A stretch of DNA of 33,755 bases from a virus. The translations under genes were made by a program, and so were the position numbers. Location: positions 1-33,755 of IMG/VR virus record IMGVR_UViG_3300001533_002268, one strand, 5' to 3'. Shown here one piece after another: positions 17,429-18,355 of this stretch. Position 1 is the stretch's first letter. Every line of letters starts with the position of its first letter. The notes beneath the pieces are model-generated. The model was not told the origin of the DNA and did no database searches. It was given only the letters and a program-made list of their open reading frames with translations.

Positions 17429-17564
17429 GGGGAGATAGCAAAATAAAAACAACAAATACTATCTAACTACTCTCTTTAATGAGAGAACTCAATGGTGTTT
17501 TCAGTAAAGGTAAAGTGTTTGAGTTGAAATCAAAAGATTGAAGGTTCGAGTCCTTCTCTCCACA
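17429..17564 (+). tRNA. tRNA-like RNA with an inserted arm in the D region
   Basis: The 3' part is a regular tRNA: D-loop end GGTAAAGTG, anticodon stem TTTGA/TCAAA with loop GTTGAAA (anticodon position TGA, 17525-17527), variable AGATT, T arm GAAGG-TTCGAGT-CCTTC and acceptor strand TCTCCAC. The 5' acceptor GGGGAGA with T8 A9 at 17429-17437 pairs at six of seven positions, but about 70 extra bases lie between it and the D-loop end. They contain AAATAC/GTGTTT (17454-17459 with 17495-17500) around a CTCTC/GAGAG hairpin, so they form an extra arm. UGA would be a Ser anticodon, but Ser tRNAs have a long variable arm, so the identity is unclear. The edges CAACAAATACT and TTTTCAGTAAA recur in the permuted tRNA at 18218-18355. 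Confidence 0.5.
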
Positions 17565-17586
17565 CTGTCTTAAAATTATTTTCTTA

Positions 17587-17596
17587 GTATTTATAT
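17587..17596 (+). promoter_or_regulatory. GTATTTATA motif before the homing endonuclease
   Basis: TTAGTATTTATATG repeats the string before 5519 (TTAGTATTTATAAG). Here it ends only two bases before the ATG at 17599, too close for a normal -10 element unless the mRNA is leaderless. It may instead have travelled with the mobile gene. Confidence 0.25.
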
Positions 17597-17598
17597 GT

Positions 17599-18210
17599 AT
17601 GGAAAATAATTTTAAATTTCGTTTTATATATAAAACAACTAATATAAAAAATAATAAATTTTATATTGGTGTTTATGAAACAAATAATCTTAATGATGGT
17701 TATTTAGGTTCAGGAAGAGTTCTTAGAAATAGTGTTTATTATTATGGTAAAGAAAATTTTAAAAGAGAAATTTTAGAATATTGTAATAATAGGATTGATT
17801 TGTATCAAAGAGAGAGTGAATTAGTTACGGAAGATTTAATTAGAGACCCTAAATGTATGAATTTAGTTATTGGTGGTAAATCATTTGAAGATGCCAAAAT
17901 GAATGGAAAAAAGGGTAATCAACGATTCATTAAATTAATGAAAGATGATAAATGGAGGGAAATTCAATGTAAAAAACAATCGATTGGGATAAAAAAAGAA
18001 ATGGAGAGAAAAGGAATTAATGGTCGTTGGAATGGTAAACGTCATAGTGAAGAATCTAAAAGAAAAATAGGGGAAACTAATTCATTTAAACAAAAAGGTT
18101 GTAAAAATTCTCAAAATGGTACGTATTGGATAACTAATGGAGTTACCAATAAAAAAATTAATAAAGATAATAATATTCCTATTGGTTGGAAACGTGGAAG
18201 AATTTTATAA
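17599..18210 (+). CDS. GIY-YIG homing endonuclease with NUMOD3 motif
   Basis: The N-terminal nuclease domain has the two GIY-YIG strands as FIYKTTN (residues 9-15) and FYIGV (21-25), then a GYLGSG turn. A helix with the conserved arginine region and ESELV, carrying the metal-binding glutamate, lies near residue 75. Around 140-165, WNGKRHSEESKRKIGETN is a NUMOD3 DNA-binding motif, typical of phage Seg-type and intron endonucleases. The last 35 residues (YWITNGVTNKKI, then IPIGWKRGR) form another frequent homing-endonuclease tail. It cuts phage DNA to promote its own spread. It is intact and lies between two abnormal tRNA genes, so a tRNA gene is a likely target. No intron core is seen around it, so it is free-standing. 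Confidence 0.85.
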   Translation: MENNFKFRFIYKTTNIKNNKFYIGVYETNNLNDGYLGSGRVLRNSVYYYGKENFKREILEYCNNRIDLYQRESELVTEDLIRDPKCMNLVIGGKSFEDAKMNGKKGNQRFIKLMKDDKWREIQCKKQSIGIKKEMERKGINGRWNGKRHSEESKRKIGETNSFKQKGCKNSQNGTYWITNGVTNKKINKDNNIPIGWKRGRIL

Positions 18211-18217
18211 AATATAC

Positions 18218-18355
18218 GGGAAAACTTAAAGTATTTTCAGTAAACATCGGTTCGAGTCCGATATTGTTCGCCAAAAATGAACGATTAGCCAAGTTGGATA
18301 AGGCACAAGACTATTAATCTTGCAATCACGCAACAAATACTTTTAAAATATTCCC
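18218..18355 (+). ncRNA. Terminal helix around the permuted tRNA
   Basis: GGGAA at 18218 pairs with TTCCC ending at 18355, and AAAGTATTT at 18228-18236 pairs with AAATACTTT at 18335-18343 (nine pairs). The helix opens on TCAGTAAA on the 5' side and CGCAAC on the 3' side, and then holds the permuted tRNA. The ends of the RNA thus lie in this stem instead of in the acceptor. The same junction strings flank the extra arm of the tRNA-like RNA at 17429. Confidence 0.55.
18246..18322 (+). tRNA. Circularly permuted tRNA: 3' half precedes 5' half
   Basis: The 3' half comes first: T arm ATCGG-TTCGAGT-CCGAT (18246-18262), acceptor strand ATTGTTC (18263-18269) and an encoded GCCA (discriminator G plus CCA). 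After a five-base linker comes the 5' half: acceptor strand GAACGAT (18279-18285), T8 A9, D arm GCC-AAGTTGGATAA-GGC, and anticodon arm CAAGA-CTATTAA-TCTTG ending at 18322. The two acceptor strands pair at all seven positions (one G-U), and the D and anticodon stems are perfect. The anticodon position reads ATT (codon AAU, Asn); A at position 34 is rare in bacteria. To become a normal tRNA it would need joining at the variable loop and cutting at the linker. It could instead be a tRNA mimic. Confidence 0.7.

Follow-up and report, generated by a model that had tools for sequence, protein, structure and literature searches.

An array of structured RNAs upstream of a Ro-like gene

The DNA analyzed here (the window, meaning the whole 33.8 kb stretch of an IMG/VR virus record) carries T4-like replication genes. 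A cluster of structured RNAs separates a DnaB-type helicase gene (14884-16983) from the open reading frame at 18789-20420. Its elements E0, E1, E2 and E4, in which P1 and P2 denote the two helices of a shared stem module, are listed below with the surrounding features.

17095-17135, plus strand: candidate Bacteroidota-type -7 element TATGTTTG and boxA-like GTTCTTTAAAA, read from the sequence, ahead of the array
17148-17267, plus strand: E0, an element of Y-RNA type; P1 AAGGA 17149-17153 / TCCTT 17263-17267; AACT 17154-17157; P2 TTGTTAT 17160-17166 / ATAACAA 17248-17254; CAG 17169-17171
17169-17242, plus strand: cargo of E0, a tRNA-like fold in normal order (ARAGORN, anticodon UCA, UGA-reading)
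17282-17354, plus strand: ordinary-looking tRNA-Met (CAU), without the module, inside the array
17429-17563, plus strand: E1, a tRNA-like RNA with open acceptor; acceptor 17429-17435/17557-17563; anticodon arm 17518-17534; T arm 17540-17556
17433-17464, plus strand: H1, a second helix of E1; AGATAG 17433-17438 / CTATCT 17459-17464
17455-17504, plus strand: the module copy of E1, capped and inserted at the D arm; P2' AATACTA 17455-17461; 8-nt strand 17462-17469; P1 CTCTC/GAGAG 17470-17474/17481-17485; AACT 17486-17489; P2 TGGTGTT 17493-17499; CAG 17502-17504
17599-18210, plus strand: open reading frame resembling GIY-YIG / group I intron endonucleases (TIGR01453, 2.9e-7), between E1 and E2
18218-18355, plus strand: E2, a permuted tRNA-like RNA; P1 GGGAA/TTCCC 18218-18222/18351-18355; AACT 18223-18226; P2 18229-18235/18336-18342; CAG 18238-18240; T arm 18246-18262; acceptor 18263-18269/18279-18285 with loop GCCAAAAAT; D stem 18288-18290/18302-18304; anticodon arm 18306-18322
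18535-18623, plus strand: E4, the module with a GC-rich hairpin as cargo; P1 GGAAG/CTTCT; AACT 18540-18543; P2 TTGTGTA 18546-18552 / AATACAA 18604-18610
18789-20420, plus strand: protein with a Ro60/Rsr fold (fold match), helical repeats and VWA/MIDAS (DDSVSM), the presumed protein partner
20432-21532, plus strand: ARPP-1 domain protein (PF20208, 1e-13), the next gene after ro

Elements of the E0 class occur in many relatives, where ARAGORN reports different anticodons at the same place (Leu, Glu, Lys, Arg, Ile and other triplets); the CAU of the neighboring tRNA-Met is kept in nearly every relative. The open reading frame at 17599-18210 probably encodes, by sequence, a free-standing homing endonuclease, and it looks like one that landed in the array, because the closest relative (L002) lacks it at the corresponding place. 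Searches for DNA similarity to named phages placed their best matches in this homing endonuclease, and none of them in the RNAs of interest. Rfam searches run with permissive E-values gave credible matches over the region to tRNA models only, and no other family, including the curated Y RNA families, which are known from other lineages, rose above the cut-off. An NsiR1-like Rfam match at 21530-21588 was set aside, as it fits a terminator hairpin.

Several further sequences recur between the elements. BoxA-like strings can be read there, and a hairpin at 17366-17402 (CTCGGT...CTTACGAAAGTAATGTA...ACCGAG) reappears in relatives, at differing positions and with covariation in its stem (GCAGT/ACTGC, CACGGT/ACCGTG). 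There is another recurrent hairpin, similar to TTCCCCGTTGTCCCTGTGGCAACACAAACTTCGGGGTAA. Between E2 and E4, positions 18420-18505 hold the strongly conserved GGTTGTTGGTATCAG...CACCTAACATTTGATGGTTAAGAATGGTTTTTATC, also kept in relatives, and are likely to form another structured RNA.

A stem module shared in opposite topologies

A preliminary description of this locus had pointed to two 11-nucleotide strings common to E1 and E2. Within the 33.8 kb window each was indeed found in these two RNAs only, CAACAAATACT at 17450-17460 and 18331-18341, and TTTTCAGTAAA at 17498-17508 and 18234-18244. Dinucleotide shuffles give an expectation of 0.07 matches for the former and 0.18 for the latter, with two matches in 1 of 100 shuffles for each. 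In both RNAs the strings flank a helix, as had been described, formed by AATACTA (17455-17461) and TGGTGTT (17493-17499) in E1 and by AAGTATT (18229-18235) and AATACTT (18336-18342) in E2. The opposite topologies are also as claimed: E1 has an open acceptor and a capped arm, and E2 a capped acceptor and an open arm. The statement that one RNA is a topological permutation of the other holds for the arm.

The two strings are parts of a larger, two-helix module that runs P1, AACU, a 7-bp P2 and UWCAGUAA on its first side and AACAA, P2', 8 nucleotides and P1' on its second; AACU opposite the 8 nucleotides, and UWCAGUAA opposite AACAA, make two internal loops. The initial account thus understated the case, since it overlooked the conserved AACU, P1 and 8-nt strand, as well as two further copies of the module, at 17148-17267 (E0) and 18535-18623 (E4). 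We searched for copies with a descriptor consisting of P1 (5 bp), AACU, 2-3 nt, P2 (7 bp), 2 nt, CAGUAA, the cargo, an A-rich strand, P2', 8 nt and P1'; across the related loci scanned, an A and a U of the 8-nt strand are nearly fixed. Relatives contain a fifth class, E3, in which the module carries a cargo of about 33 nt, and the cargo of E3 and E4 consists of hairpins that are not tRNA-like. In E0, E2, E3 and E4 the stem is made by pairing of the predicted 5' and 3' ends of the RNA. E1 is the exception: its stem is internal and capped, and its module is a circularly permuted form.

The window contains four copies of the module (E0, E1, E2 and E4) against a Markov expectation of 0.07. Counted over 49 distinct related loci, the 4 kb upstream of the gene corresponding to 18789-20420 (ro) contain 167 strict copies, an adjacency that is partly by design because most loci were obtained through ro or its neighbor gene. 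Elsewhere on the same strand of these loci (334 kb) there were no copies; the opposite strand had two, and 272 kb of unrelated viral contigs had none. The shorter anchor AACT-N-CAGTAA had many chance matches in eight large contigs, as expected, and the module-like ones among them cluster by the ro gene.

Covariation of the shared helices and the tRNA arms

It had been cautioned that the strings alone are weak evidence, and that the shared pairing is the real support. Both judgments proved sound. The pattern AACAAATACT-N25-55-TTTTCAGTAAA matched 17 viral contigs, of which L002 alone was a genuine relative and the others were unrelated sequence; as a finder of relatives among viral contigs the two-string pattern was discarded, since it returned mostly chance matches. 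The covariation analysis that had been proposed was run on relatives of both loci, and pairing was conserved with compensatory changes. For E1 (43 sequences), 98.2% of cells were paired over 29 pairs, 21 of which had changed on both sides, with 171 compensatory cells compared with 42 in shuffles. The corresponding values for E2 (36 sequences) were 98.6% over 32 pairs, again with 21 changed on both sides, and 178 compensatory cells compared with 51; slid controls for the two RNAs gave 40-55% paired. Pairing of P1 and P2 was used by the descriptor to collect copies, so that their percentages are biased upward. The tRNA arms, which lay outside the collection criteria, show the strongest covariation. 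P1 and P2 covary in E2, E0, E3 and E4 and across classes. An extra pairing of AACU with AGU within the module is possible; both strands are nearly invariant and so carry no covariation signal.

These results bear on the possibility that A/T-rich DNA simply yields similar strings and foldable arms by chance. The many chance matches of the loose two-string pattern would agree with such an origin, but the confinement of the module to one place in 49 loci speaks against it, and it is already refuted by the covarying pairs; we assign it a vanishingly small probability.

E2 is not expected to mature into a tRNA

The halves of E2 are in swapped order around a short acceptor loop, the arrangement of a permuted tRNA. 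When its arms were re-set in tRNA order, with a generic 4-nt variable loop and an ACCA end supplied, ARAGORN called a tRNA in 35 of 35 sequences, compared with none of 36 sequences left in native order and none of 350 shuffled ones. The T loop and the D-loop GG are conserved while the anticodon positions vary, with 14 triplets among 36 copies; U33 is present in 25 of the 36 and absent in 11. CCA is encoded ahead of the acceptor loop in many copies, and several acceptors (L043, L044, L055 and L059) have a tiny loop and no CCA end.

The shared junction had been suggested to be a common splicing site or a common protein-binding site. Under the splicing interpretation, E1 would be a tRNA interrupted by an intron, and E2 would be a tRNA gene in permuted order whose transcript matures by way of a circular form, as happens in algae and Thermofilum. 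The 3' half of E2 does precede its 5' half, often with CCA encoded before the loop, and joining with a 4-nt variable loop yields a perfect cloverleaf. In addition, seven of eight large related contigs encode an Rnl2-type RNA ligase, so ligation chemistry exists in these phages, although nothing links the ligase to these RNAs. The bulge-helix-bulge (BHB) motif has two 3-nt bulges and a 4-bp helix. No BHB was found here, P2 being a 7-bp helix with large asymmetric 6/8-nt loops, and neither RtcB nor a tRNA-intron endonuclease was found in the eight large related contigs. Furthermore, the anticodon is not conserved, the tiny acceptor loops leave several copies without a CCA end, and the same module bears hairpins in E3 and E4 and a whole, uninterrupted tRNA in E0; nor would an excised arm need a conserved AACU/CAG core tied to the ro gene. 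Given the variable anticodons and the failure to find a BHB motif or, in the eight large related contigs, RtcB or a tRNA-intron endonuclease, we rejected splicing, which we consider highly improbable, and the mature product of E2 is not expected to be a tRNA.

In E1 the anticodon is partly conserved, with a UGA triplet in 26 of 41 copies. The copy in the window has one acceptor mismatch, G2-A71, at a spot that is paired in relatives. The helix H1 sits just after the acceptor and overlaps both the acceptor and P2'; minimum-energy folding of the window's E1 favors it, and it covaries (87% paired, 8 compensatory cells) across distant phages, with GAATAG/CTATTC in L077 and GATGGT/ACCATC in LR756500. 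H1 competes with the acceptor and P2, and could form a pseudoknot or an alternative state.

Distant relatives and changes of the open end

The same RNAs are present in loci for which Ro similarity was the sole criterion of retrieval, L191 (48% identity in Ro) and LR756500 (28%). The strict descriptor, with its 8-nt strand and fixed A and U, missed the copies in both. A looser descriptor allowing 8-9 nt found three in LR756500 against 0.34 expected, a number reached by 2 of 500 Markov sequences, and three in L191, one of which pairs with the wrong downstream site. Four anchors occur in the 17 kb of LR756500, all upstream of ro. In one element there (L203 5025-5215) the module bears about 150 nt of cargo that is not evidently a tRNA.

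The three RNAs of L191, likewise all upstream of ro, are a variable-loop hairpin type, a D-arm insertion and an E0 type. The first is an un-permuted tRNA whose variable loop bears the stem, folded as a capped hairpin (Rfam tRNA match at 2754-2889, 47.8 bits). This RNA is the un-permuted counterpart of E2, so that over evolution the open end shifts between the stem and the acceptor. Closed in L191 and open in E2, the variable-loop stem lets one RNA be followed through a series of circular permutations that arose in nature.

The downstream gene encodes a diverged Ro-like protein

The protein encoded at 18789-20420 was not identified as Ro by Pfam, PHROGs, NCBIfam or PDB sequence profiles. Pfam TROVE gave no match even at E 10, with only a weak hit to VWA_2, and the PDB sequence-profile search was empty; the assignment therefore rests on an AlphaFold2 model (30 homologues, pLDDT 73.8), which consists of a helical repeat and a VWA domain. 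The best eleven Foldseek matches of this model in the PDB are all Ro60/Rsr proteins, including Deinococcus Rsr and the Ro60 of Thermus phage phiLo. VIA-align gave Z scores of 12-14 over about 400 residues for Ro60/Rsr, compared with 10.5 for the best non-Ro match, which covers the VWA domain only. The MIDAS residues of the DxSxS motif (D373, S375 and S377) are invariant in the 30 homologues, and the top viral match of the protein is annotated 'Ro-like RNA binding protein'. By its modeled fold, then, the gene product is a diverged Ro60 protein, of a lineage likely to lie beyond the reach of the TROVE profile; no homologue of this lineage was found in GTDB genome contigs. In LR756500, a gene that by eye is similar in sequence to the window's ARPP-1 gene also follows ro, which suggests a conserved ro-ARPP-1 gene pair.

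The RNAs as probable phage Y RNAs, presumably held by Ro

In bacteria, the basal stem of Y RNAs tethers Ro and the tRNA-like domain is offered to partners such as PNPase (PMC8394870), and there are reports of phages that carry Ro along with Y RNAs that mimic tRNA (PMC7824862, PMC7765460). The RNAs described here have the corresponding parts: in E0, E1 and E2 the effector domain is tRNA-like and its T and D loops are conserved, and the array adjoins the Ro-fold gene at 18789-20420. Because known bacterial Y RNAs bind Ro by the basal stem, it is simplest to suppose that here the module serves Ro as a handle and that elbow and acceptor form the effector face; that the module is repeated, covarying, confined upstream of ro and found with distant Ro proteins likewise favors Y RNAs. 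We consider it very probable that both E1 and E2 are members of a phage Y RNA array, tRNA mimics on a putative Ro-binding stem. The module would most likely be the binding site of the Ro60-family protein encoded immediately downstream, and a common protein-binding site, the other earlier suggestion, is well supported by the restriction of the module to the stretch upstream of this gene.

In the model we propose, one stem module in each RNA would hold an effector domain, usually a tRNA mimic. E2, E0, E3 and E4 have the usual Y-RNA layout, with the RNA ends forming the stem and the cargo inside, and E1 is the circularly permuted arrangement, in which the acceptor ends are free and a capped hairpin inserted at the D arm provides the stem. 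The RNA would act folded and unspliced, as a tether: Ro would grip the stem, and the tRNA-shaped elbow and acceptor would be presented to a partner, which may be a 3'-exonuclease, a tRNA-acting enzyme or a tRNA-attacking defense protein. The identity and purpose of this partner are conjectural parts of the model, the purpose being perhaps RNA decay, repair or decoy, and H1 is left unexplained by such a simple Y-RNA model of E1.

One refinement of this account, possible but doubtful, is that the RNAs are decoys, tRNA mimics held and protected by Ro against host defenses that cleave or sense tRNAs, with anticodon variation reflecting an arms race. The elbow is conserved while anticodon positions 34-36 vary between phages in E0 and E2, RNA-repair ligases occur in the same phages, and the tRNA-like domain of Salmonella YrlA has been proposed as a competitive inhibitor of anticodon nuclease (PMC7790460). 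Anticodon variation could, however, equally reflect relaxed constraint, and the UGA triplet is kept in most E1 copies. A wider and rather unlikely extension of the Ro-held model is that phages keep a battery of tRNA mimics on Ro, diversifying their anticodon loops and switching the open end between stem and acceptor, and that E1 types may be processed by RNase P and receive CCA while on Ro, serving as decoys or sensors for tRNA-attacking defenses.

It is very unlikely that the cluster is instead a single large ornate structural RNA in the style of GOLLD or ROOL, with the repeated module serving for self-assembly and having nothing to do with the Ro gene. Such an RNA would suit the tandem repetition of the module between phage genes, the tRNA inserts and the boxA-like strings between elements. 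Rfam, however, gave no match to GOLLD or ROOL, the elements can be separated and differ in number and order, a homing endonuclease reading frame interrupts the window's cluster, and the link to ro is tight down to 28% identity.

As a probable array of Y RNAs held by Ro, this one locus combines several Y-type RNAs with different cargo, one stem and two topologies, and has about 50 related loci for comparison. It therefore lets the Ro-binding code and the role of tRNA mimicry be read and tested, which bears on the function of phage Ro and Y RNAs. It also advises caution, since 'permuted' or 'intron-containing' tRNAs called in phages may be Y RNAs.

Comparison with known systems

Like the permuted tRNA genes of red and green algae and Thermofilum pendens, E2 has its 3' half first and a short acceptor loop that can encode CCA; unlike them, it has no BHB and no conserved tRNA identity, and no tRNA-splicing endonuclease was found in the eight large related contigs (PMC3978253). 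The array shares more with bacterial Y RNAs and YrlA of Salmonella and Deinococcus, in which, as predicted here, the RNA ends form a Ro-binding stem, the inner domain mimics the D, T and acceptor arms of tRNA, and the gene adjoins ro (PMC8394870, PMC7790460). It differs from these in a stem sequence that Rfam does not recognize, in having several Y-type RNAs in tandem, in a cargo that includes a full cloverleaf with anticodon arm, and in E1, which leaves its tRNA ends open and has a capped stem; RtcB was not found in the eight large contigs searched here. As with the Ro and YrlA-type RNAs of jumbo phages, Vibrio phage pir03 and Thermus phage phiLo, a Ro-fold protein is encoded in a large phage genome beside a tRNA-like partner RNA, as reported there (PMC7824862, PMC7765460), whereas the Ro protein here is too diverged for Pfam TROVE and one locus holds an array in both topologies. 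To our knowledge, three features are new variants: the tandem layout of the array, the placing of the stem within an open-ended tRNA, and the flips of topology.
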